Part shown: piece by piece, positions 713 through 12,150 of the stretch
Layout of the letters: each line of letters begins with the position of its first letter
Numbering within the stretch: position 1 is the stretch's first letter
Source: Sphingobacterium pedocola
GTDB taxonomy: Bacteria > Bacteroidota > Bacteroidia > Sphingobacteriales > Sphingobacteriaceae
DNA: 64,000 bases
Assembly: GCF_015209965.1 (NCBI RefSeq)
Contig: NZ_MU158689.1
Location: 450,648-514,647, forward strand
Direction of reading: 5' to 3'
Notes under the pieces: generated by a model
Seen by the model: the letters and a program-made list of their open reading frames with translations, nothing else
Database searches by the model: none
Told to the model about the DNA's origin: nothing
Made by a program: the position numbers and the translations under genes

Positions 713-2125
713 TTAGTTAGTAATATGTGTGTTGGTCAGCTTTTTTCGTGGCAATATGGTATTGTTGATCGGCGTGCCGCGAAAGGTGAGACCTATGATT
801 ACCACTTCTTTGTTCAGTACGGCTGTGGCGGTGGTTGGTATGGTAAAGGTAATCCGATTGCCCGATATGGCTCGGTTGGCGGGTGGGATATTATAGGTAC
901 TGTAAACCCCGGTGCTGGCATCTTTAAGTCCAAGTGCCAATGCAGCGAATGTAGTATATGCGGATCCGATAGCGCTGTCATCAAAAGTGTAATCTAAGGT
1001 CATCTCTTCTCCCGCTTTGATTTGTTTTCCCTCATGTGAAAATTCAAGGGTAGCATACCTCGTTGCCTCGATTATTGGTTGAAATAGGGCTGTGGAAAGA
1101 GGAGAGCCTATAGTGTAGCTGTAGCTACTATTACTATGACGCAAGGAGAAGTTAAATATTCTATAATGTTTATAGGTGTTGAAAAAGTCGGGTGCCACCT
1201 TTACCACAATATTTCCGATTTCTGAGATGCTGACCAAATTTTTATCGATAGTGACGCTTAAGCCATTGATTACTTGTCCCGGAATGATTTGCTGTAGCCC
1301 TAAGCCGAAGGATGCGATGTCACTGATGCTGTAATAGCGGTTAAAAACTGCTTGCCAGCCTTCCTTGACATTGATCTTAAACTCCAAATCGGAGCCAATA
1401 GGCACATTGCCGTAGTTGGAATACGTCACATCGTTTATTATGCTAGTTAATGTCGGCAGCAAAAGATTGATGTTAATAACACTCGATTTGAAATCTCCTA
1501 CTTTTACATACAAGCGGTGAATCCCGGTATCTAATTCGGAAGTTAGTGCGGGTAATGTGGCTTGAAGTAGGTTTGTTGTCGCTGTGCTTTCGTCGAAAGG
1601 TACGTCAAATTCAAACCCATCGCTTACACGTTGCAAGTATACTTTGATGTCTTTAACATCTCCAGTAGAAAGAAAATACTGGCCGTTAATGTTAATGGGT
1701 GTCGGAGATGACCAGGAATAAAATGTTGGGGCGTTATATATCGAGGGTACTGCAATGTTGAATACTGGTTTTAAATTGAATACCGAGATACTACCGTCTT
1801 CGGCGGTGACGGTATACGTCGTGTTCTCTGAAAAATCAACTTCTTCACCGGAAGCGGGGGAGATGGATGCGCCTTCTGAGACTTTGATGTGAGGGGTTAT
1901 CTTCGCTGGTCGCTCAGCATCCGGACTCCAGTAAACGGTGATTTGATTGTTGTTGATGACGGCATCCAAACTATCGATATCCCCATAACCGGAAATACTG
2001 AACTGTTCGATGCTGTTGAATGGTTTTAAGATTTGTTCGTATTCCGTTTTACAGGCATTCATCACCGAGATGCTCGCGACAAACAGCAGGAAAAGAACGA
2101 TTTTCTGTATATATATATTGCGCAT
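713..2125 (-). CDS. DUF5018-like lipoprotein, module protein A (copy 1)
   Basis: A 470-residue predicted lipoprotein with lipobox VMNAC near residue 25. Residues about 35-125 form a DUF5018-like all-beta domain, recognisable by the run EGASISPASG followed by TTYTVTAEDGS. The next part looks like further Ig/IPT-type beta domains. It is a paralogue of the protein at 4258-5325: the N-terminal 200 residues and the C-terminal part (SFDDSAIGS-like region and IPTTATA) match, but this copy carries roughly 115 extra residues in the middle. It is sixth in a leftward operon of lipoproteins that includes two HmuY-type heme-binding proteins. No enzymatic motif is seen. A surface-exposed partner of HmuY in heme capture is inferred from context only; the biochemical role is unknown. 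Confidence 0.7.
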   Translation of the reverse strand: MRNIYIQKIVLFLLFVASISVMNACKTEYEQILKPFNSIEQFSISGYGDIDSLDAVINNNQITVYWSPDAERPAKITPHIKVSEGASISPASGEEVDFSENTTYTVTAEDGSISVFNLKPVFNIAVPSIYNAPTFYSWSSPTPININGQYFLSTGDVKDIKVYLQRVSDGFEFDVPFDESTATTNLLQATLPALTSELDTGIHRLYVKVGDFKSSVININLLLPTLTSIINDVTYSNYGNVPIGSDLEFKINVKEGWQAVFNRYYSISDIASFGLGLQQIIPGQVINGLSVTIDKNLVSISEIGNIVVKVAPDFFNTYKHYRIFNFSLRHSNSSYSYTIGSPLSTALFQPIIEATRYATLEFSHEGKQIKAGEEMTLDYTFDDSAIGSAYTTFAALALGLKDASTGVYSTYNIPPANRAISGNRITFTIPTTATAVLNKEVVIIGLTFRGTPINNTILPRKKLTNTHITN

Positions 2126-2162
2126 GTTTTCTTGATCAAATAGATTTTGTAATAGGGTTGGA

Positions 2163-3341
2163 TTATTGTTTGGCTTTTACGGTTAAACCTGATGAACCGC
2201 CACGGTTTATCAAGACATCGTTACCAAGGTCTGTCTGCTCGTCGAAATCTCCATAGAAGGCGAGTCCATAAGTCGGTCGTGTGTGGTAGATAATGGTCGG
2301 AGACTGTGAATTCCATCCACTATTGGGGTATAAACCAATGGGTAGATCGGGAAAAATAGCCTTCACCGTGGTGCGGGTAGCACTCACAATTTTCATGGGC
2401 ACATTTTTGTTTAGGAGTTCCAAAGGAAAGCCTTCCGGTGTATATCGGATAGCGGTGTTTGGTATAAGTGTGTTGTAGGTGAGCGGATCTCCTGCAACGC
2501 GGGCGTATAGATTTTTTAGGCCTACAAACACGGTACCGTAGCGGTCATCTGTCGGGCTGTTCCGACTTATGGTAAATTCTATCGTGTCGCCAGCAGCATA
2601 ATGCATACTTGATGTTATTTGGGTCATGTAGGGTCTTCTATAATAGAGTTTCATAGGGTTCAGGTCTGTCACGCGCCCCTGATGCTCCATTTTTACGTCG
2701 TATTCACCGGCCATGGCATTTGGCGAAATGTCGACCAGCATGGTATATAAGGTGCCGGGGCTTACCGAAAAGGCTGTAGCATAGTCATTATGTTGTTCTC
2801 CCGTCGCTTTGTTCGTGAATACAAATCGGGCATTGGTACTGGTGGATTCGAAATTGCCAATTAATGTCAACCGGCCATTGACCGGTTTTTCCAGCAATGT
2901 TGTCGCATCCGGCGTACCACTAATACTTACATTTAATGTTTGACCATAGGGCAGTACTTTTTGTATGACCGCATAACTGCGTGAAGCTCCAGTAGCGCTT
3001 TTGACAGTGTACTTGGTGGTGTCAGCGCCTAATCTTAATGGTTCTAGACCACCATCTAGGTTGATTTCTTCACCTTCTGAATTATAGATGCTAGCCCCTT
3101 CATCCAGTCTAATTTCTGGCATAAGATATTCGATAGCATAGTAATAGGGAACATATAGCGTTATCGTGTTTTTTTCTTCGTTGATCGCTCCTAATAATTC
3201 CTGCTCCGTATTGGTAATGCTAAAGGCAAGGATTTTGTTAAATTCAGGCTTCTCGTAATCGACATGTGCTGTTTTGGTACAAGATAGAAATCCGAGAAGG
3301 AGGAGCATCCATATGCATGTCTTGGTGTGTATTTTATTCAT
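2163..3341 (-). CDS. Lipoprotein with DUF5018-like N-terminal domain, module protein B (copy 1)
   Basis: A 392-residue lipoprotein with lipobox GFLSC at residue 21. The N-terminal 120 residues carry a DUF5018-like pattern (DEGASIYNSEGEEINLDGG, then TKYTVKSATGASRSYAV), distantly related to the start of module protein A. The protein is clearly paralogous to the one at 5356-6501: shared stretches include CTKT at the lipid site, INLDGGLEP, SYAVIQK/SYTVIQK and the C-terminal DFDEQT motif. It lies 27 bp downstream of the HmuY gene at 3369-4250 and 37 bp upstream of protein A, so co-transcription is likely. Function is not known. Co-occurrence with HmuY in two copies suggests a dedicated partner, perhaps for surface heme binding, but this is inference. 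Confidence 0.7.
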   Translation of the reverse strand: MNKIHTKTCIWMLLLLGFLSCTKTAHVDYEKPEFNKILAFSITNTEQELLGAINEEKNTITLYVPYYYAIEYLMPEIRLDEGASIYNSEGEEINLDGGLEPLRLGADTTKYTVKSATGASRSYAVIQKVLPYGQTLNVSISGTPDATTLLEKPVNGRLTLIGNFESTSTNARFVFTNKATGEQHNDYATAFSVSPGTLYTMLVDISPNAMAGEYDVKMEHQGRVTDLNPMKLYYRRPYMTQITSSMHYAAGDTIEFTISRNSPTDDRYGTVFVGLKNLYARVAGDPLTYNTLIPNTAIRYTPEGFPLELLNKNVPMKIVSATRTTVKAIFPDLPIGLYPNSGWNSQSPTIIYHTRPTYGLAFYGDFDEQTDLGNDVLINRGGSSGLTVKAKQ

Positions 3342-3368
3342 TATGATAATAACATTGAAGTAATTAAA

Positions 3369-4250
3369 TTATATTCCCACTGTTGTTTTTTTTGTGTTTA
3401 GATTTATGTGTAAGGACGGATTACGTGTGACGAAGCCGAAGCGTTTTTCATCTTTTTTTATAATCATATAACGAAAGCTCACATACGGAATGGCACCTAC
3501 TCCCCGTAACATGGCCATGGGGTCTGTGACGCCTTTGTAAAAACTCTGCACTTCCATTTTGGCATAATTGCCGTTTGCCGTTCGTATAATGATTGTCCGC
3601 GGAACAACTTTTATTTTTCGAGGGCCGTACTCTCCGGGAAAAGCCTTTGCCATATCTTCCGAAAGAGGATACATCATGTGTTGATAAAGGTATCCGTTGT
3701 CTTGTTCCAGCTTCTCCGGTCTGAAAATGTTGTCGAAAAAAGTGTAAAAGGTATGACCTCCCGGGTTCAACGCATCACCCATGCCCGCTAGTCCTGCAAG
3801 ACCTGGGATCTTAAAATCGGCGTCGTCGGGTACATCCATCACTTCGCTATAGGGCTGCTCTAACACAACCACTCCTCCTATACTGGAGGAGCCATAACCA
3901 AAGCCTGTGGTAGATCCGTTATTGGATATGATGGCTGTTCTATACAATCCGGAGAAAGAGATATCCCAACGGTCACTTGTCCTATAAGCTGTGGGTACCG
4001 ACGAAAACTTATTGAGGCTGAAAAATAAGGGATCTGAGCCATCCAATGGACGGTGGCTCTCCGGTATGTTGTTAACACCAAGGTCAAGAATTTGTATTTC
4101 CCTATTGAATACGGAATCACTTGGAGGGAGATCAGGATCCCAATCGTAACCATTGAGATCGTAGACTTCGCCACAGGAAGTAAGGGCTAAAAGAGTACTA
4201 CAAACTGTAAAAAGTACTATACTTCTCGTGCATACTTTAATTTTCTTCAT
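3369..4250 (-). CDS. HmuY-family heme-binding lipoprotein (copy 1)
   Basis: A 293-residue lipoprotein with lipobox ALTSC (Cys26). The HmuY-family pattern is visible: RWDISFSGLYRTAI near residue 93, a VVLEQPYSEV segment, the stretch NGNYAKMEVQSFYKG and a terminal SFRYMI strand. HmuY proteins in Porphyromonas and relatives are outer-membrane lipoproteins that take heme from host or environmental hemoproteins and pass it to a TonB-dependent receptor. This copy is longer than the paralogue at 6527-7231 and contains a Gly/Ser-rich insert around residue 115. It follows module protein A copy 2 after only 7 bp. No TonB-dependent heme receptor is seen in the window; it may be encoded further left. Heme ligands cannot be assigned from sequence alone. 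Confidence 0.8.
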   Translation of the reverse strand: MKKIKVCTRSIVLFTVCSTLLALTSCGEVYDLNGYDWDPDLPPSDSVFNREIQILDLGVNNIPESHRPLDGSDPLFFSLNKFSSVPTAYRTSDRWDISFSGLYRTAIISNNGSTTGFGYGSSSIGGVVVLEQPYSEVMDVPDDADFKIPGLAGLAGMGDALNPGGHTFYTFFDNIFRPEKLEQDNGYLYQHMMYPLSEDMAKAFPGEYGPRKIKVVPRTIIIRTANGNYAKMEVQSFYKGVTDPMAMLRGVGAIPYVSFRYMIIKKDEKRFGFVTRNPSLHINLNTKKTTVGI

Positions 4251-4257
4251 TATCGAA

Positions 4258-5325
4258 CTAATTGGCTACAATAATTGTGTTTTTATTCGGTGTGATTTGA
4301 TACGAATAATTGTCCGTGTAAGTTGGTCTATTTACCATTGGTGCTTTGGGGAGAAATGTGACAGAAGAAATATAACCCCCTATTGCATTTGTTGCAGTCG
4401 TAGGTAGTACGAATGTAATCTTATTGTCTGCAAGCGTGAAGTTTGATATGGATATATTGGCAACGCCTACAGTACCATTAGCTCTTGGTACAGCTTGAAT
4501 ATTTAAACCTATAGTAGCACCGAAATTGTTTTGAAAATACCGAACTACCGCTCCATCAAAGTCATCTGAAAGTGCATAATTTAAGGTCAATTCTTGGCCC
4601 AACTTTACATTTTGACCAATCTGCTCCAAATGCATACCATGAGTTAACAGACTAGTAGGAGGTTGTCTAATATACACGTCTACATGTCCTGATGTCAAAT
4701 CTCCAACTTTGAGCCATATCTTGTGCCATCCTGTGTCTTGTTGAGCTGTCAGTCGAGGTAACTTTACATCCAAACTTGTGGAAGTTGCTGTTTCAGGATC
4801 AAATGGTATATCAAATTCCAAACCGTCCTTTACCCTTTGTCCATAAACTTTGACTTTACTTAAATCTGTCGCTAGAAAATATTCACCAAACAACTTGAAA
4901 TCTCGAACGGTTCCCCATCTTAAAACGCTTGTAGAGGTATTAATTGCATTTGTGCTATTTAAGATAGGTATAGGTTGCTGAACGATAGGTTTGATTGTAT
5001 AGTTACGGACAGTACCGTCTTCTGCGGTCACTGTATAAGTCGTGTTTTCAGAGAATTCCACTTCTGTTCCTGACGCTGGTGATATTGTTGCTCCTTCTGA
5101 CACACGAATTGTAGGTTTTATCTGTATTGGTAAGGGATTATCTGAATTCCAATAGACCTGAATTTCATCACCAGAAATAGCTGCATTAACAGAGTCTAGA
5201 CTTCCATATCCTGCTACTGAAAATTTTATAACCTCGTTGTATGGTCGTTTGATTGTTTCTGTTTTGGAACATGATACAATGAACAACGCTAATAAAGAAA
5301 ATATAACTGTTTTATAAATATTCAT
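4258..5325 (-). CDS. DUF5018-like lipoprotein, module protein A (copy 2)
   Basis: A 355-residue lipoprotein with lipobox FIVSC (Cys19). It is the shorter paralogue of the protein at 713-2125. The first domain has the same landmarks (SVAGYGSLDS, EGATISPASG, TTYTVTAEDG), and both proteins carry FDIPFD/FDVPFD and IPTTAT/LPTTAT. It lacks about 115 middle residues found in copy 1. It sits 30 bp after module protein B copy 2 and 7 bp before HmuY copy 1, so the two modules are joined in one transcription unit. Its DNA looks more AT-rich than copy 1 by eye, suggesting the two modules have diverged for some time or come from different sources. Role unknown; heme acquisition partner by context. Confidence 0.7.
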   Translation of the reverse strand: MNIYKTVIFSLLALFIVSCSKTETIKRPYNEVIKFSVAGYGSLDSVNAAISGDEIQVYWNSDNPLPIQIKPTIRVSEGATISPASGTEVEFSENTTYTVTAEDGTVRNYTIKPIVQQPIPILNSTNAINTSTSVLRWGTVRDFKLFGEYFLATDLSKVKVYGQRVKDGLEFDIPFDPETATSTSLDVKLPRLTAQQDTGWHKIWLKVGDLTSGHVDVYIRQPPTSLLTHGMHLEQIGQNVKLGQELTLNYALSDDFDGAVVRYFQNNFGATIGLNIQAVPRANGTVGVANISISNFTLADNKITFVLPTTATNAIGGYISSVTFLPKAPMVNRPTYTDNYSYQITPNKNTIIVAN

Positions 5326-5355
5326 ATCAATAATAATCTTAAGTAAAATTGTATT

Positions 5356-6501
5356 TTATAGTACCTCTAATGTGCTCGATATTCCAGATAGCAGTACCCC
5401 ATTTCCCCAATTTGTTTGTTCGTCAAAATCAAAATAGAATCCCATGCCGATATCTGTTATAAATGGGAAATATTTTCCAAATGCGTAAAACGTACCATAT
5501 TTTCCTTGAGGTAGATTCGGGAATTTTACTCTTACTTCGGATCTATTCCATGAAATAATTTCTAAGGGGATCTCTTTATTGTAAAGATCTTCCGAAAATC
5601 CTTCTGGAGTTAGGTATACATAGGCTTTATCCATCTTTAGATAGACTCTTTTTAGCCCAATAAATACACCATTGTTATTATCGTATACTGCTCCATTGAG
5701 TAGACCATATCCTTCTGCTTTTAATATCATTTCTTCTCCAGGTGCATATTTTGTGGTAGACAAGAAAAAACCAGGTATTCCAGGCGTATATTTTAGTTTA
5801 ATATCGGGTAGATTTGTTTTTCTTCCCAGATGCTCCATACTGACTTCATACTCACCCGCAAGGGCTGTTGGTAGAATGTTGATGGTCATCACATAGTTTG
5901 GGGATCCTGAAACAATGTTATTTATTGACACAAAATCATCATGTGTTTTGCCCGTCAATTTATCTTTGAAATAGAATTTAGCTTGTGTGTTCGTAGACTC
6001 AAAATTTCCAGTTAATCTTAAAAGACTATGTACAGGTTTTTCTAAAGTGACACCTTCAACAGCTCCAATATAACTAACAGTCAGTGGAGAACTATGGGCT
6101 GCAATTTTTTGAATAACCGTATAGCTGCGTCTTGCGCCAGTACTACTCTCAACAATGTATTTTGTATTTTGCCCCAGTGGAATTGGTTCTAAACCTCCGT
6201 CCAGATTTATAAGTTCACCTTCTACATCCAACAAACTGGCACCCTCGTCTAATTTTATTGTAGCGTCCAATACACTTAAGCTGATGAAGTATGGTATATA
6301 TACAGTGATCGTATTATTATCATTATCAATAGCGCCCAATAATTCTCCTGTTGCCGTTTTTATTTTATACTCCAGAATGCGGTTTTTTTCTTCTTTTTGA
6401 TAATCTACTAACTCGGTCTTGGTACAAGCAAGAAATAGAGAGATTATACAAACTAGTGGTATAAAAATGTTGTTGAGGTCAAATCTCAATTTTGTTTTCA
6501 T
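5356..6501 (-). CDS. Lipoprotein with DUF5018-like N-terminal domain, module protein B (copy 2)
   Basis: A 381-residue predicted lipoprotein with lipobox LFLAC (Cys26, followed by TKTE). It is paralogous to the protein at 2163-3341 along its whole length: ELLGAI, LDEGAS, LINLDGGLEP, SYTVIQK, a GEYEVSMEHLGR strand, and DFDEQT at the C-terminus. It lies 25 bp downstream of the HmuY gene at 6527-7231 and 30 bp upstream of module protein A copy 2. No catalytic motif is visible, and the fold appears to be a series of beta-sandwich domains. The conserved order HmuY-B-A in both modules is the main evidence that B works with HmuY. Confidence 0.7.
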   Translation of the reverse strand: MKTKLRFDLNNIFIPLVCIISLFLACTKTELVDYQKEEKNRILEYKIKTATGELLGAIDNDNNTITVYIPYFISLSVLDATIKLDEGASLLDVEGELINLDGGLEPIPLGQNTKYIVESSTGARRSYTVIQKIAAHSSPLTVSYIGAVEGVTLEKPVHSLLRLTGNFESTNTQAKFYFKDKLTGKTHDDFVSINNIVSGSPNYVMTINILPTALAGEYEVSMEHLGRKTNLPDIKLKYTPGIPGFFLSTTKYAPGEEMILKAEGYGLLNGAVYDNNNGVFIGLKRVYLKMDKAYVYLTPEGFSEDLYNKEIPLEIISWNRSEVRVKFPNLPQGKYGTFYAFGKYFPFITDIGMGFYFDFDEQTNWGNGVLLSGISSTLEVL

Positions 6502-6526: not shown

Positions 6527-7231
6527 TTAATTTGTTTTTAAATTTTTACTGCCATCCTGTTGTACAAAATATCGAAATGTCAAATAAGGAGCCGGCCAAT
6601 ATAGATCAGATACAGCTGGAGGATTACCTTTGTAGATACTAATGATCTGCAGTTTAGCAAATTTTCCATCGGCTAGACGGAGTAGATAAGTGCGGTTTGG
6701 ATAGGTTTTCATGATATGTGTTGTCATATCGTAGCTGTACCATCCGGGCGAACCACCATCGGTAGCCCATCCGATGGTGTGGATTGTGCTATTATCAAAT
6801 TCGCTGTCTGAAGGTGCTGTGCTCAAAGATTCATACGATTGATGGATTAGGATGATTGACGTATTATCGACTATACCATCGTAACCGGGTGTACCGGTAT
6901 ACTTTTTGTTGTTTATTTGTATATCGCCATTGTAATTGCCCGTAAAAGCCAGATCCCATTCACCCGTCTTAAACCATTTCAACGAATCTGCCTTAGTACG
7001 GATCCAGATTTGTTTCTTTAGCTCGAGATTGTACAGAAAGGTATAGAAAGGACGTTTTTCTTTTCCATCGATTCCTTCAGCAATAGAGGCTTTGGTGTCG
7101 CCGGCCAAATCATATATAACTGTACTCTTGCCATCTTCTAAAGATGGCGTAGCTTCTTCTTTTGCACAATTTGTAAGTAGTATTACGAGTGTAAAAGCAA
7201 AGAGTTTATTTAAACCAATTCTAAATAACAT
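6527..7231 (-). CDS. HmuY-family heme-binding lipoprotein (copy 2), first gene of the operon
   Basis: A 234-residue HmuY-type lipoprotein. Recognisable features are the lipobox LLTNC, the N-terminal strand STVIYDLAGDT, the core GEWDLAFTGNYNGDI, an ILIHQSYE segment, DGKFAKLQIISIYKG, and the terminal LTFRYFV strand. An in-frame ATG exists at 7273, but that codon lies inside an 18-bp operator repeat (7264-7281) and would add a charged segment before the signal peptide. The ATG at 7231 gives a normal lipoprotein signal (MLFRIGLNKLF...), and a CACATTTG -7-like box ends 5 bp before it. I therefore chose 7231. Expression is probably controlled from the 21-bp-spaced repeats at 7264-7302. Role: surface heme capture, by family. 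Confidence 0.82.
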   Translation of the reverse strand: MLFRIGLNKLFAFTLVILLTNCAKEEATPSLEDGKSTVIYDLAGDTKASIAEGIDGKEKRPFYTFLYNLELKKQIWIRTKADSLKWFKTGEWDLAFTGNYNGDIQINNKKYTGTPGYDGIVDNTSIILIHQSYESLSTAPSDSEFDNSTIHTIGWATDGGSPGWYSYDMTTHIMKTYPNRTYLLRLADGKFAKLQIISIYKGNPPAVSDLYWPAPYLTFRYFVQQDGSKNLKTN

Positions 7232-7233
7232 GG

Positions 7234-7243
7234 TGCAAATGTG
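7234..7243 (-). promoter_or_regulatory. -7-like promoter box of the HmuY operon
   Basis: On the minus strand 7243-7236 reads CACATTTG, which matches the A and TTTG of the Bacteroidota -7 consensus TAnnTTTG. Only four bases separate it from the ATG at 7231. The proximal edge of the operator pair is exactly 20 bp upstream. The same arrangement (CACTTTTG, 20 bp from the operator) precedes the heme oxygenase gene. No good -33 TTTG is present, as expected if an activator bound at the repeats replaces it; that last point is inference. Confidence 0.5.
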
Positions 7244-7263: not shown

Positions 7264-7302
7264 TTATATGCAATCCGTATTATTTTATATGCAATCTGTA
7301 TT
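7264..7302 (-). promoter_or_regulatory. Direct-repeat operator pair, HmuY operon
   Basis: Two direct copies of an 18-bp site lie at 7264-7281 (plus strand TTATATGCAATCCGTATT) and 7285-7302 (one C-to-T change). The period is 21 bp, two helical turns. Two more copies with the same spacing lie at 8207-8245. AraC-type regulators commonly bind direct half-sites about 21 bp apart, and an AraC-family gene lies nearby at 11173-12150, making it the best candidate for binding here. The factor and its effector (heme or iron status) are inferred. Confidence 0.7.
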
Positions 7303-7341
7303 TTGCCTGTTTAAAGCCTTTGCAGGTGGTTCTTTCTAGGT

Positions 7342-7602
7342 TTAGTTGCTCAAAATAAATTGCTGTTGTCGTTTTTTCGTACAAATGGGAACAATACATT
7401 TGAGTTTTACCAAGAGCCTGACCGTTTTATGTACGGTAGCCCAACTAATGCGGTGTTCTTGGCGGATATATAGCCAAAGATCATCGATGCTGCCTGTAAA
7501 AGGGGTAGCACATAAGGTATCGATGATAATCAGACGTTGCTGACTGATGATATAACCGTGTTCAGTCAGCAACGTCAATATGGTCTGCTTTGTGCTTTCC
7601 AT
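7342..7602 (-). CDS. Fur-like winged-helix protein, DNA-binding domain only
   Basis: An 86-residue protein matching the N-terminal winged-helix domain of the Fur family: helix 1/2 with ISQQRLIIIDTL, then ISWATVHKTVRLL, the counterpart of the family's recognition helix (usually ISLATVYRTLKLL), and a wing ending at the C-terminus. The C-terminal dimerisation and metal-binding domain of Fur (about 60 more residues with His/Cys ligands) is absent. It is encoded 8 bp after the heme oxygenase gene, in the same leftward unit, and before the operator of the HmuY operon. It could be a natural small regulator or a decayed Fur. The intact short frame, family-like residues and placement beside heme genes favour a functional protein, possibly sensing metal or heme by another route. 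Confidence 0.65.
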   Translation of the reverse strand: MESTKQTILTLLTEHGYIISQQRLIIIDTLCATPFTGSIDDLWLYIRQEHRISWATVHKTVRLLVKLKCIVPICTKKRQQQFILSN

Positions 7603-7610
7603 CTACAGGG

Positions 7611-8171
7611 CTAACTTGCGGCTGCCGTTTCGAACACATGGCCGAAACGTGTGAAAGTCTCGTCGGCAGCTTCGAGTATAATCCGTTCTTCTGCTTCTGT
7701 TTGGGGCAGGCTGTTTAATACCGTGGTAAATGACTGCCACATTTTTCCACTATCTGCTCCGTATCCAGAGAAGAAATTAAAGCCTTTGTCCATGCCGTAC
7801 TTTTGCAGCATCTGTACAATGTATGGCCCACCCATAATCGAACCTTCTAGCACGTATAATGCGCCAAAAGCTTGTAGGGTATTGCTAATTTGCGGTGCCT
7901 GTGCTATAGGAAGGACGTTGATGTCACCGCCGAGTTCTTCAATATCTTTCTTGATGTAAGAAGAGTTTCTTCTTTCTGCCATGTCAGGCAGGTTGCCACT
8001 ATTAATGTAAGGGGCTATCGCTTGCTCTACTGCATGAAAATAAGCGTAGAAATTCTTCAATACATTGGCGTAGTCTGCGTTGCTTCGTACACTTTTTAGC
8101 TGCAAAACAACTGTCTTTTCTAATTGTTGATGGGCCTGTTGCGTGGCCTCTTTGATTTTTGTATTTACCAT
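7611..8171 (-). CDS. Biliverdin-producing heme oxygenase
   Basis: A 186-residue soluble protein of the bacterial heme oxygenase family (HO/BphO type). It opens heme to biliverdin, CO and iron, which releases iron from imported heme in the cytoplasm. The N-terminal motif IKEATQQAHQQLE places the proximal heme ligand at His14. The middle segment GALYVLEGSIMGG corresponds to the distal helix with its flexible glycines. Length is normal for the family. It starts at ATG 8171, seven bases after a CACTTTTG -7-like box, and is divergent from hmuT. The neighbouring HmuY genes, ABC hemin transporter and Fur-like protein make heme-iron use the evident purpose. Likely regulated through the repeats at 8207-8245. 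Confidence 0.85.
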   Translation of the reverse strand: MVNTKIKEATQQAHQQLEKTVVLQLKSVRSNADYANVLKNFYAYFHAVEQAIAPYINSGNLPDMAERRNSSYIKKDIEELGGDINVLPIAQAPQISNTLQAFGALYVLEGSIMGGPYIVQMLQKYGMDKGFNFFSGYGADSGKMWQSFTTVLNSLPQTEAEERIILEAADETFTRFGHVFETAAAS

Positions 8172-8178
8172 AGTAGTA

Positions 8179-8186
8179 CAAAAGTG
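8179..8186 (-). promoter_or_regulatory. -7-like promoter box of the heme oxygenase gene
   Basis: The minus strand from 8186 to 8179 reads CACTTTTG, similar to CACATTTG before the HmuY operon. It is 20 bp from the operator pair, the same distance as there. The start codon follows after seven bases, so the mRNA leader must be extremely short if this box is used. Confidence 0.5.
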
Positions 8187-8206
8187 AACAAGAGTTGGGA
8201 TAGTCG

Positions 8207-8245
8207 TTATATGATATCCGTATTACTTTATATGCAATCCGTATT
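8207..8245. promoter_or_regulatory. Direct-repeat operator pair between heme oxygenase gene and hmuT
   Basis: Two copies of the 18-bp site occur at 8207-8224 (two differences near the middle: GATATCC for GCAATCC) and 8228-8245 (identical to the copy at 7264-7281). The period is again 21 bp and the orientation relative to the leftward genes is the same. As it sits in the divergent gap, it could also influence the rightward hmuTUV operon. A binding protein of AraC type is inferred. Confidence 0.7.
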
Positions 8246-8270
8246 ATTTTTAATCAGTCTACATAAAAAC

Positions 8271-8301: not shown

Positions 8302-8308
8302 CATGGAT

Positions 8309-9148
8309 ATGAAACAGAACATTTTCTTATGTTGGCTTTTCTTAATTGTTTTTGCTGCGCAAACAGCTGTTGCACAGCAGCGTATCATTACATTGAGTAG
8401 TGCTTTGAGTGAAACGGTACACGCCTTAGGTAAATCCAAAAATATAGTCGCTGTGGATGTGACGAGTGAATATCCACAAGAAATTAAGCAGAAGCCTCGA
8501 GCGAGTAGGGATCGCACTTTTGCATTAGAAGGCCTATTGGCCTTTAAACCGGATATGATCCTTACCCCACCTAACGAGATCAGTTATGCTGTTGAAGTAA
8601 AATTGAAAAAGCTGGGGGTCAGGGTAATTACTATAGAGCAAGAGTATTCGGCATCGGGTGCAGAACGCTTTATAAAAGAAGTTTCTCAGGCTATCGGTGC
8701 AAATTCAGAGGGAGCGATTTTAATTAAAAAGTTCAATACAGAATTAGCGCATGCCCTGAAAACTATCAAGGTGCAACGTAAACCCAAGGTACTCTTTGTC
8801 TATGCACGAGGTGTTGGTCTAATGAGCGTAGCAGGAAAAGGCAGTCATATCGATGCGATTATATCTTTGGCGGGAGGCCGTAATGCTGTACAAGAATTTA
8901 ACGATTTCAAACCGTACAGTACCGAAGCGCTGATAAAAGCTAACCCAGACGTTTTGTTGTTGTTTGATTTCGGAACAACTAGTCTCGGTGGAAAAAATGC
9001 AGTGTTGAATATGCCCGGAGTATCGCTCACGAACGCGGGTAAAAATAAGCATGTCATTTCGATGGATGGCCCATTGCTGATTAATTTTTCAACACGATTG
9101 CCGCAAGCTATCTTAGCGCTTAACAAACATTTGCTCACTGTAAAGTAA
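8309..9148 (+). CDS. hmuT: Hemin ABC transporter periplasmic substrate-binding protein HmuT
   Basis: A periplasmic binding protein of the BtuF/HmuT cluster, about 279 residues. A signal peptide (MKQNIFLCWLFLIVFAAQ... ending near AVAQ) is followed by the two lobes typical of class III binding proteins. RIITLSSALSETVHALG opens the N-lobe, and FKPDMILTPP and NPDVLLLFDFG are strand motifs of each lobe. It should carry heme across the periplasm to the permease encoded 6 bp downstream. I chose ATG 8309 because it begins directly with the signal peptide and the promoter-like box ends at 8301; ATG 8303 would add only Met-Asp. Specificity for hemin, rather than siderophore or cobalamin, rests on the adjoining heme oxygenase and HmuY genes. 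Confidence 0.85.
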   Translation: MKQNIFLCWLFLIVFAAQTAVAQQRIITLSSALSETVHALGKSKNIVAVDVTSEYPQEIKQKPRASRDRTFALEGLLAFKPDMILTPPNEISYAVEVKLKKLGVRVITIEQEYSASGAERFIKEVSQAIGANSEGAILIKKFNTELAHALKTIKVQRKPKVLFVYARGVGLMSVAGKGSHIDAIISLAGGRNAVQEFNDFKPYSTEALIKANPDVLLLFDFGTTSLGGKNAVLNMPGVSLTNAGKNKHVISMDGPLLINFSTRLPQAILALNKHLLTVK

Positions 9149-9154
9149 TATTTT

Positions 9155-10195
9155 TTGAAAAGGCAATTTATCTATCTATCGTTTATCATTATACTGTCTT
9201 TCTCTACAGTGTTGTCTTTAAGTTTTGGTGCGTTTTATATTCCATGGCGAGATGTGTGGTTGAGTATGGTCCACAAGCTGGGATTTTTTCAATCGGAAGC
9301 TATAGATGAACTTCATAGTGGGGTCATCACACTGGTACGTTGGCCTAGGACGTTACTGGGAATCTTGGTTGGTGCAGCATTAGGGGTTAGTGGCGCGGCG
9401 ATACAGGCAATTTTTCGGAATCCTTTGGCAGAGCCAGGTTTGATCGGCATATCCGCTGGAGCATCTTTGGTAGCAGCTTCGATTATCGCTTTCGAAACAT
9501 TGCTATTTTCTACACTTGGTTCGTTATTTGGCCATTATTTATTGGCATTTGGTGCTTTTTTTGGTGCAGGATTAGCTACTTGGATAGTGTATCAGATAGC
9601 GTTGTATGAGGGCAAACCCCATATTGGTACGATGCTGCTTGCTGGGGTAGCCATCAATGCTTTAGCAGGCTCATTGACGGGATTGATTTCTTTTGTCTCA
9701 GACGAGCAGCAGCTCCGCTCTATTACATTTTGGATGTTAGGTAGCCTCGGAGGTGCTTCGTGGGAAACTGTATGGACGATGTCGCCCTTTGTATTAGTGG
9801 CATTAGTCGGACTACCGCTTCGTGCAAGAGCCTTGAATGCGTTGTCCTTAGGAGAACAGGAGGCGCAGCAGTTGGGGCAACGCCCTAATAAGATTAAGAT
9901 CATGGTTGTTCTATTGGCGACGATGGCGGTGGGTGCTGCTGTATCTGTGTCAGGAATAATCGGTTTTGTAGGTCTATTAGTGCCACATGCAGTGCGTATG
10001 ATAGGAGGTTCAGACAATAGATACGTATTACCAGCATCTGCTTTGTTGGGTAGTATAATCCTGACGATAGCAGACTTGATCGCTCGTACGATCGTTCCTC
10101 CGTCTGAAATACCGATTGGCGTCGTGACGGCATTACTAGGGACACCTCTATTTTTGTATATACTGATAAGGGATAAAAAGAAAATAATTATTTAA
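9155..10195 (+). CDS. hmuU: Hemin ABC transporter permease HmuU (FecCD family)
   Basis: A 346-residue permease of the FecCD/BtuC family with about ten hydrophobic segments. Family motifs are clear: RWPRTLLGILVGAALGVSGAAIQ near residue 60, NPLAEPGLIGISAGA near 88, and the cytoplasmic loop LGEQEAQQLGQ around residue 235, which contacts the ATPase. The C-terminal GIIGFVGLLVPHAVRMIGG is highly typical. The reading frame has no ATG near its beginning; TTG at 9155 is the likely start, giving MKRQFIYLSF and the first membrane segment, 6 bp after hmuT. It forms the inner-membrane channel for heme with the products of hmuT and hmuV. Confidence 0.88.
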   Translation: MKRQFIYLSFIIILSFSTVLSLSFGAFYIPWRDVWLSMVHKLGFFQSEAIDELHSGVITLVRWPRTLLGILVGAALGVSGAAIQAIFRNPLAEPGLIGISAGASLVAASIIAFETLLFSTLGSLFGHYLLAFGAFFGAGLATWIVYQIALYEGKPHIGTMLLAGVAINALAGSLTGLISFVSDEQQLRSITFWMLGSLGGASWETVWTMSPFVLVALVGLPLRARALNALSLGEQEAQQLGQRPNKIKIMVVLLATMAVGAAVSVSGIIGFVGLLVPHAVRMIGGSDNRYVLPASALLGSIILTIADLIARTIVPPSEIPIGVVTALLGTPLFLYILIRDKKKIII

Positions 10196-10274
10196 CTGAA
10201 ATCCATGTTGAAAGAGAAGTGACAGCAAGCTTAGGCTTTTTTTACTTTTTACTTTTGAATTTTTACTTAAAAAA

Positions 10275-11090
10275 ATGCTGGTAGCAGAGAATCTAACTTA
10301 CACCATTAAAAAATGCCCTATCCTTAAAGGGATAAATTTTGTGATACACCCAGGAGAAATGGTAGGTTTATTGGGTGCAAATGGTGCAGGTAAATCGAGT
10401 TTGATTAAATTGTTAAATGCGGAGCATACGGCGACAGCGGGAAAGGTCAAATTAAACGGTGTTGACCTGAGGTCTTATTCGGCGATTTCCTTAGCCAAAA
10501 TGCGGGCCACGATGGCGCAGCAACAGCAAATGTCGGCCGATTTTTCCGTTAAGGAAGTGGTTTTGATGGGGAGGTATCCACACTACGTGGGTAAACCAAA
10601 AGCTAGTGATTTGGAAGCTGTGGAGCAGACAATGGCGCTATGTGGCGTAACCCATCTTGAAGAACGATCTATTTTGAGCTTGTCTGGAGGTGAGCGCCAG
10701 CGTGTACATTTGGCTAGGATATTAGCGCAATTATGGGGGCAACCCAACGCGTTGCTTCTACTGGATGAACCCATTTCAGCAATGGATATCAAGTTTCAGC
10801 ATCAGTCGTTGTCTTTAGTTCGCTCTTTAGCGGATAAAGGATGGATGATTGTTGCAGTACTTCACGATATTAACTTGGCTGCGCAATATGTTGATCGGTT
10901 GTTTTTGATGAAAAATGGTCGAAAATTGATGGATGGAACACCTTCTGAAGTATTGAATTCTAGAAATATCTATACCATCTTTGGGATCGATGCTGAAGTG
11001 GTAGTTAATCCAAAGACTCTGCATACGTATATCGTACCATCCGCGTTGAAACCCGCTGTTTTTGAATTCGATAAAAGTATGGTTTTATAG
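10275..11090 (+). CDS. hmuV: Hemin ABC transporter ATP-binding protein HmuV
   Basis: A 271-residue ABC ATPase of the FepC/HmuV group. Walker A is GANGAGKSS near residue 34, the signature is LSGGERQRVHLARIL near 136, Walker B is LLLLDEPISAMD near 158, and the switch histidine is in VLHDINLAAQY. It energises import of heme through HmuU. The gene follows hmuU after 79 bp containing T-rich sequence but no obvious terminator, so it is probably in the same transcription unit. Length is slightly above the usual 255-260 because of a C-terminal extension of about 15 residues. Confidence 0.88.
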   Translation: MLVAENLTYTIKKCPILKGINFVIHPGEMVGLLGANGAGKSSLIKLLNAEHTATAGKVKLNGVDLRSYSAISLAKMRATMAQQQQMSADFSVKEVVLMGRYPHYVGKPKASDLEAVEQTMALCGVTHLEERSILSLSGGERQRVHLARILAQLWGQPNALLLLDEPISAMDIKFQHQSLSLVRSLADKGWMIVAVLHDINLAAQYVDRLFLMKNGRKLMDGTPSEVLNSRNIYTIFGIDAEVVVNPKTLHTYIVPSALKPAVFEFDKSMVL

Positions 11091-11172: not shown

Positions 11173-12150
11173 ATGTTGATCAGATCCCGTATAGGAGGGT
11201 TGTCAAATTGGTTATTTGAAGAAAATATACCCGATGCTTACGTGCCGAACTATAGTTTGGAGGAAAAAGAAGTCAATGTACAGGAAGAAGCCATCTTTTT
11301 GCATAATAAACAAGTCACTTCGGGTGGTTTATTTCTGATGAATTCGGAGATGCGCTTCGATAAACCAACCCATATTTATACAGAAGTCAACGGAGAAACA
11401 ATCACCAGTCAATTTATTTTTTACAAGAAGGCAGCAGAACAGTTCAAAGGAAAGTCTAATGCTTTGTATGGTCGAAGTCGTCATAATATCCGTTACATCC
11501 CGACAACTACTAGTGAGCACGAGGTTAAGGAAGGGATTGACTACATGTATTTCCTCATCGTGCTGAGTAAAGACTATTATTTTAATTTGATAGACCGGCA
11601 TTCTATCTTGCATGAAGATTTTGTAAAAGAAATAGAACGTGGTAACTATACCTCATTTGCTTCGGAGGATTTCTTTGTGACATTAGAGATGCGACGTGTT
11701 ATTGACGACATGGTCAATTGTCGTCAGGTAGGCGAACTGAAACGTATACACACAGAGGCGCGTATTTTGGAATTGCTGATGTACCAACTGGAACAATTGG
11801 GTGGTAATGGACATGAACAGGAGCTTATTAAAGGTGATGACATATTTAAATTGGAACAGGCTCGTGAGGTGTTGAAATCCCGCTATGCTTCGCCTCCTAC
11901 ACAAAAGGACCTGTCACGAGAGGTCGGACTAAATGAATTTAAGTTGCGCAGGGGGTTTAAAGAATACTTTGGTATTACGGTATATGATTTTATTACCAGG
12001 CTGCGTATGGAGAAAGCACGAAAGCTTTTATTGGAAGAACAGATGACAATCAGCGAAGTTACTGCTTTGGTCGGGTTTTCGCACCAGAATAATTTTAGTA
12101 TTGCTTTTAAGAAATATTTCGGACTACCGCCCAGTGAGTTGAAGGCTTGA
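11173..12150 (+). CDS. AraC-family transcriptional regulator
   Basis: A 325-residue regulator with a two-helix-turn-helix AraC domain at residues about 232-325. Landmarks are TQKDLSREVGLNEFKLRRGFKEYFG (first HTH and linker start), MEKARKLLLEEQMTISEVTALVGF (second HTH), and the family ending SHQNNFSIAFKKYFGLPPSEL. The N-terminal 220 residues form an effector-binding domain like that of PchR-type regulators of iron and siderophore uptake. It lies 82 bp after hmuV in the heme locus. The 21-bp-spaced direct repeats at 7264-7302 and 8207-8245 have the geometry expected of AraC half-sites, so I propose this protein as their ligand; the effector may be heme or biliverdin. That assignment is inference. 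Confidence 0.85.
   Translation: MLIRSRIGGLSNWLFEENIPDAYVPNYSLEEKEVNVQEEAIFLHNKQVTSGGLFLMNSEMRFDKPTHIYTEVNGETITSQFIFYKKAAEQFKGKSNALYGRSRHNIRYIPTTTSEHEVKEGIDYMYFLIVLSKDYYFNLIDRHSILHEDFVKEIERGNYTSFASEDFFVTLEMRRVIDDMVNCRQVGELKRIHTEARILELLMYQLEQLGGNGHEQELIKGDDIFKLEQAREVLKSRYASPPTQKDLSREVGLNEFKLRRGFKEYFGITVYDFITRLRMEKARKLLLEEQMTISEVTALVGFSHQNNFSIAFKKYFGLPPSELKA

Follow-up and report, generated by a model that had tools for sequence, protein, structure and literature searches.

Paired direct-repeat operators at a fixed distance from the -7 element in heme-uptake loci of Sphingobacterium pedocola and its relatives, with the adjacent AraC-type protein as the probable binder

Regulators of the AraC family offer the closest described parallels to the locus analyzed here. 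At the araBAD promoter of Escherichia coli, AraC occupies two head-to-tail half-sites, araI1 and araI2, with a spacing of about 21 bp; the proximal site extends into the -35/-33 region, and a location of -71 to -33 at a fixed phase to the -7 element corresponds to this class II activator position. For the activators of siderophore uptake PchR, YbtA and PbtA, the AraC-type gene is located next to TonB receptor genes, and both the regulator and its targets lie beside Fur-type boxes. To our knowledge, AraC-type activation at the -7/-33 promoters of Bacteroidota has been little studied.

In the accessible parts of the open-access papers on heme uptake in these bacteria, control is framed in terms of Fur and iron, and no AraC-type regulator or operator is described there for heme loci of the kind analyzed here. 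The Fur box of Riemerella anatipestifer reads 5'-ATTTAGAATTATTCTAAAT-3'; it is also found at hmuR, and Fur bound that promoter in EMSA (PMC5609570). The term AraC is absent from the main text of that paper. In Flavobacterium psychrophilum, the HmuY-type heme operon hfpR-hfpY is induced by low iron, and heme or hemoglobin lowered the activity of its promoter, less than ferric iron did; Fur-type control is discussed, and the term AraC is absent from the accessible text (PMC9331221).

We analyzed a 64-kb stretch of the S. pedocola genome (hereafter, the window) that carries a heme-uptake locus (Table 1). A sequence-only reading of this DNA had placed two operator pairs before an HmuY operon and a heme oxygenase gene and had proposed the protein of a nearby AraC-type gene as their regulator; its assignments of HmuY, heme oxygenase and the AraC-type protein proved right by Pfam matches (PF14064, PF01126 and PF12833, respectively). 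The HmuY gene probably heads an operon that extends to the left, past the edge of the window. Within this run of genes, the one at 3369-4250 is HmuY-like at a score below the Pfam cut-off, and the run continues beyond the window (locus L068) with another HmuY-like gene, the third, and with two genes resembling those for TonB receptors. Divergent from the heme oxygenase gene are hmuT, hmuU, hmuV and the AraC-type gene, and the HmuV ATPase scores above the cut-off for PRK13548, a model of heme ABC ATPases. HmuV has 271 aa in the window, and its homologue has about 570-613 aa in many related loci (L048, L050, L053-L059, L062, L063, L065 and others), roughly twice the length of an ABC ATPase, so that a second domain seems to be fused there.

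Table 1. Features of the heme-uptake locus, in coordinates of the window.
Feature	Position	Strand	Basis
Five more genes in the direction of HmuY, same run	713..6501	-	operon structure predicted
HmuY-like lipoprotein gene, ATG at 7231	6527..7231	-	PF14064, 29.7 bits (cut-off 27)
Fur-type box TTATTTAGAATTGGTTTAAATAA, inside the first HmuY codons	7206..7228	-	2 mismatches to pattern
-7-like octamer CACATTTG, HmuY promoter	7236..7243	-	TTTG 24 bp from pair 1
Half-site TTATATGCAATCCGTATT, promoter-proximal, pair 1 (minus-strand HmuY promoter)	7264..7281	+	motif match, 0 mismatches
Half-site TTATATGCAATCTGTATT, promoter-distal, pair 1	7285..7302	+	motif match, 1 mismatch
Gene for 86-aa Fur-like protein, DNA-binding half only ("mini-Fur")	7342..7602	-	PF01475, positions 2-73 of 121
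Heme oxygenase gene	7611..8171	-	PF01126, E 9e-19
-7-like octamer CACTTTTG, heme oxygenase promoter	8179..8186	-	TTTG 24 bp from pair 2
Half-site TTATATGATATCCGTATT, promoter-proximal, pair 2 (heme oxygenase promoter)	8207..8224	+	motif match, 2 mismatches
Half-site TTATATGCAATCCGTATT, promoter-distal, pair 2	8228..8245	+	motif match, 0 mismatches
Fur-type box TTATGTAGACTGATTAAAAATAA, on the hmuT side and sharing the last 2 bp of pair 2	8244..8266	-	2 mismatches
hmuT, hmuU, hmuV: periplasmic protein, permease and ATPase of a heme-type ABC importer	8303..11090	+	PF01497, PF01032, PF00005
Fur-type box TTATTTAGAATAATTTTAAATAA, 41 bp before the regulator start codon	11109..11131	+	0 mismatches
AraC-type regulator gene, 325 aa	11173..12150	+	PF12833, E 1.1e-23

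The regulator belongs to the AraC/XylS family by its C-terminal double helix-turn-helix AraC domain, which scores 83.8 bits against PF12833 (cut-off 33.6) and 33.5 bits against PF00165 (cut-off 26.6). A Pfam search found no domain in its N-terminal part. A structure model (mean pLDDT 85.7, pTM 0.64) consists of a beta-rich N-terminal domain, helices and the C-terminal DNA-binding domain; the latter aligns with AraC-type DNA-binding domains over 100-110 residues (Z 10.7-14.7, rmsd 1.7-3.5). The structure matches of the N-terminal domain are middling, including, among the matches listed, CuxR (Z 8.6, rmsd 3.6, 145 residues aligned) and the AraC dimer domain (Z 7.1, rmsd 3.8, 135 aligned). Within this domain (residues 1-210), the histidine at position 104, which is invariant, might serve as a ligand of hemin.

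Allowing up to three mismatches, the 18-bp sequence TTATATGCAATCCGTATT occurs four times in the window, against 0.07 expected from shuffles, and the copies form two direct (head-to-tail) pairs, at 7264-7302 and 8207-8245, both with a 21-bp period. On the minus strand, exactly 20 bp separate each pair from an octamer resembling the -7 element TAnnTTTG, the TTTG of which begins 24 bp past the pair in both cases; on this strand, pair 1 reads into HmuY and pair 2 into heme oxygenase, and we call proximal the half-site nearer to the -7 element. This entire arrangement, as described by the sequence-only reading, was confirmed and lies far above chance. The genome comprises 8 contigs with 5,234,653 bases in total; allowing up to three mismatches, the pair pattern matches only these two places in it, and a model of 67 positions (R1), built from 11 promoters (the two window pairs and nine related ones), recovered them at E 2.3e-17 and 9.1e-17, with the next best match at E 0.094. 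Single sites at the same tolerance number 15 in the genome, the four window copies included, versus 7 for a reversed control pattern.

By the geometry of the -7 elements, transcription of HmuY would begin with the A of the ATG (7231), giving a leaderless mRNA, and that of heme oxygenase about 3 nt ahead of the ATG (8171-8174), giving a nearly leaderless one. Direct action of pair 2 on hmuT was considered and judged unlikely: the hmuT promoter lacks this arrangement, its -7 candidate lies 52 bp from pair 2 on the opposite side, and in other loci the pair sits on the hmuR side, so hmuT is probably not a direct target.

The spacing recurs in related loci, where it can be detected without recourse to the motif. 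In a motif-free self-similarity test of 23 non-redundant regions upstream of hmuT (window included), covering 29 periods, 21 bp was outstanding (z 9.4). A weaker second signal was at 23 bp (z 5.2), and no other period rose above z 2.5. The exact motif is kept by near relatives only; diverged sites were found with a pair matrix, for which the window copies served as the seed and 32 regions, the window among them, as the training set. The best matrix pair has one and the same orientation in all 32 regions, on the side of hmuR or heme oxygenase, although in one of them (L061) its place is evidently wrong. Gene starts in the related loci were taken as the first ATG, GTG or TTG and are approximate.

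Scanning 71 loci with this matrix yielded 61 distinct pairs, repeated stretches being counted once and near copies from related species kept separate. TTTG stands at offset 24 in 48 of the 61 and nTTG in 53, compared with a mean of 0.22 TTTG at other offsets. Nine loci had no pair above the threshold (L060, L061, L062, L064, L093, L114, L121, L123 and L130), and five of these (L061, L062, L064, L121 and L130) contain weaker promoter-anchored repeats. When hits were clustered, period 21 accounted for 76 pair clusters in 70 loci, and 65 of these clusters had nTTG at 24; each of the periods 17-20 and 22-25, scanned with the same matrix and loci, gave none or one. In 39 control loci, no cluster was found at period 20, 21 or 22, and 20 column-permuted matrices together produced four clusters, not one of which had TTG at 24. 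The counts from the 71 loci are not independent, because these loci overlap the training genomes and include close relatives. Together with the shuffles and the motif-free 21-bp signal, the period and control-locus scans rule out a chance origin of the pairs.

Outside the training genus, 14 of the 15 loci that, among the matches listed, combine a regulator of at least 49% identity with hmuTUV have a pair with nTTG at 24; the sole exception, without a pair, is the Gynurincola locus. Even in a genome where the regulator is only 33% identical (G061), the operator is present at hmuR. Three tandem copies in place of two occur in most Pedobacter loci and in loci of Flavobacterium, Sinomicrobium and Mucilaginibacter. 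A second model (R2) was derived from alignment A3, comprising 28 chosen pairs, all with TTG at 24; it cannot prove the 24-bp distance, since its pairs were chosen for that feature. At E <1e-3, R2 returned 40 matches in 40 genomes, 38 of them in heme loci and two in unrelated coding sequence; the latter, in G002 and G010 (30263), were counted as chance because they lie inside coding sequence. A scatter of pairs away from heme genes, which the sequence-only reading had named as grounds for doubting its proposal, was thus not seen, either in the S. pedocola genome or with R2 in the 40 genomes. Overall, the comparative evidence indicates that the pairs are conserved, promoter-linked operators of heme loci, in line with that proposal. 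A weaker R2 match (E 0.001; G018:C46:177605-177659, L232) lies at an HmuY-type gene on a different contig from the regulator gene and is a possible unlinked target of the regulator.

Several elements had been passed over by the sequence-only reading, namely, the three-site arrays, a half-length Fur-like gene between the operators, and boxes of the Fur type. The Fur-type pattern has five matches in the window, representing three boxes, against 0.08 expected. Boxes of the Fur type known in this phylum are located at HmuY and at the regulator gene, as in Fur-controlled promoters, and would account for iron repression at both; the heme oxygenase promoter in the window has no Fur-type box downstream of its -7 element and no ATTTAGA core. 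In the related loci, ATTTAGA, the core of the published Fur box, lies just downstream of 50 of the 61 pairs, at offset 33-40 in 49, and is part of a palindrome of the Riemerella type (PMC5609570). Genome-wide, the pattern has 36 matches at 20 places in S. pedocola versus 8 for a control pattern, most places counting twice because the box is nearly palindromic, and the genome encodes a Fur family protein (E 1.6e-28) among several Fur-family matches. Judging by the first residues of the encoded proteins, several of these boxes precede genes resembling those for TonB receptors, ECF sigma factors and AraC-type proteins, and another stands before a FeoA-like gene. One box (G000:C1:2228649-2228671, L180) lies in front of a further AraC-type gene, which is transcribed away from a TonB-receptor-like neighbor.

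With the G of the -7 element at -5, as given in PMC6847099, each pair spans about -71 to -33. The arrangement is the class II one of AraC, in which two direct half-sites, spaced by two turns of the helix and kept at a constant distance from the promoter, extend to -35/-33, and the position favors activation over repression. We consider it probable that the pairs are class II operators through which the protein encoded at 11173-12150 activates transcription, and that repression by Fur is a separate matter; the binding, the activation and the signal are all predictions. At the HmuY and heme oxygenase promoters, a dimer of this protein, bound from about -71 to -33, would touch both 18-bp half-sites of the direct pair from one side of the helix, two turns (21 bp) apart, and would recruit RNA polymerase in the class II manner. 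Iron-loaded Fur would repress HmuY via the box at its start and would probably also restrain the regulator gene. In such a scheme, the iron condition would come from Fur and a second one from the AraC-type protein, so that HmuY would fire fully only at low iron and in the presence of the signal of the regulator. From gene content, the simplest guess for this signal would be heme or a heme product inside the cell; the lowering of HmuY-type promoter activity by heme or hemoglobin in F. psychrophilum (PMC9331221) speaks against a simple heme inducer in that species.

The same protein could act at the same operator with the opposite effect, as a repressor or antiactivator relieved by the signal. 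We regard this as unlikely, given that class II activators occupy just such a position (-71 to -33, in constant phase with the -7 element) and that HmuY already has a Fur-type box over its start for repression. The comparative data themselves would fit either direction of regulation, and the F. psychrophilum heme effect would suit a repressor. The pairs and the -7 elements also have no clear -33 element between them, as a repressor model would allow, but this says little, since -33 elements are generally weak in Flavobacterium johnsoniae (PMC6847099).

The regulator has relatives, among the matches listed (80 of 444 confirmed stretches), in Sphingobacterium, Parapedobacter, Pedobacter, Olivibacter, Pararcticibacter, Mucilaginibacter, Gynurincola, Flavobacterium and Sinomicrobium, the closest, at 89% identity, in S. 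tabacisoli; alignment A4 comprises the window and 34 of the 80 loci, and alignment A1 comprises 14 proteins. Genes matching hmuT, hmuU and hmuV accompany it, among the matches listed, in 36 of the 41 loci L086-L125 and L130 (at least 42% identity) and in one (L127) of the other 39. An AraC-type match at E 0.001 was found in 54 of the 59 genomes searched, and a close regulator (E <1e-70) in 27 of the 36 genomes of S. pedocola and its genus. All of these 27 have HmuU at E 1.6e-102 or better, compared with three of the nine genomes lacking a close regulator that have a weaker HmuU (best 1.3e-100, in the incomplete G032) and six with none at 1e-90, the gap between the two groups (1.6e-102 versus 1.3e-100) being small. 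In the two weaker-HmuU genomes examined (G001 and G004), no protein of the locus matched the window HmuY proteins by blastp. An R2 match in a heme locus is present in 25 of the 27 genomes with a close regulator, the others being G011 and G012, and in none of the nine without.

In addition, the operator type tracks the adjacent regulator even within a single genome. In S. pedocola, the window regulator faces TTATATGCAATCCGTATT and its paralogue of 54% identity (L048) faces ATCTATGAAATCTGATAA; two regulators with two such operator dialects are also found in G006 (L053, L058), G028 (L054, L059) and S. psychroaquaticum (L087, L099). Across 53 rows with a pair score of at least 18 and nTTG at 24, repeated proteins dropped, T occupies site position 3 in both copies for 13 of 14 regulators whose second recognition helix has K or R ahead of HQ, versus 0 of 39, one of them mixed, for regulators without K or R there. 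We do not treat this covariation as the main proof, as one or two changes on the tree would suffice to produce it. The same layout recurring beside the same AraC-type gene in relatives nevertheless makes the pairs very probable landing sites of its product, and co-localization, co-occurrence and the paralogue dialects make the adjacent protein by far the best candidate binder, as had been proposed.

These observations render it quite improbable that a different protein (an AraC-type paralogue, the mini-Fur, Fur or another) binds the pairs and that the adjacent AraC gene is a passenger. Candidates would be available, in that a search of the genome with the regulator gave 31 matches at E 0.001 or better, besides the several Fur-family ones, and the mini-Fur gene itself lies between the two pairs; but the tandem 18-bp sites are unlike the palindromic sites of Fur, and mini-Fur homologues are present at only 15 of 75 loci (including L049 14520-14816; L049 and L088 represent one species). 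That the repeats are a functionless accident of duplication, the promoter having been copied with the pair, can practically be dismissed despite the near identity of the two window pairs, as spacer and 24-bp distance are fixed over strongly diverged sites in several genera.

The mini-Fur gene follows directly after the heme oxygenase gene in the window, where its product scores just below the PF01475 cut-off (22.7 versus 23.1 bits); the copy at the second S. pedocola locus (L048 10401-10691) exceeds it, at 30.2 bits. Where a locus has the homologue, its gene follows heme oxygenase or is placed between hmuV and the gene of the regulator. The C-terminal half of Fur carries the metal sites and dimer contacts, and the mini-Fur is without this half. 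It could compete with, antagonize or modify Fur.

If the class II activator reading is extended, these loci might be governed by an unnamed heme-responsive AraC-type activator that acts across several Bacteroidota orders at a composite promoter (two or three AraC sites, a -7 element and a Fur box), with insulated paralogue dialects and with the mini-Fur tuning or antagonizing Fur. We offer this larger picture tentatively and consider it, as a whole, unlikely. With a locus-specific regulator acting in addition to Fur, the coupling of heme uptake to some cue besides iron would become understandable. Possible insulation of paralogous regulators from one another has a natural example in genomes that carry both dialects. 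The fixed geometry lends itself to reporter testing.

Compared with the systems described above, the operators share with araI1-I2 the head-to-tail arrangement and the 21-bp spacing, and the C-terminal domain of the regulator model matches the AraC DNA-binding domain 2k9s (Z 13.1, rmsd 2.3, 103 residues aligned). Unlike araBAD, these loci have another half-site sequence, the Bacteroidota -7 promoter TAnnTTTG, and heme rather than arabinose genes, with two or three tandem sites and no looping site identified. The placement of an AraC-type gene beside TonB receptor genes and Fur-type boxes recalls PchR, YbtA and PbtA, likened here by their general description, whereas the present systems belong to heme loci and to another phylum. 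The parts are thus of known kinds, and their combination, fixed geometry and two dialects appear undescribed within the accessible open-access literature. The palindrome beside the operators is of the same sequence type as the Fur box of R. anatipestifer (PMC5609570); unlike in that species, the Fur-type box here would form the second element of a composite promoter.
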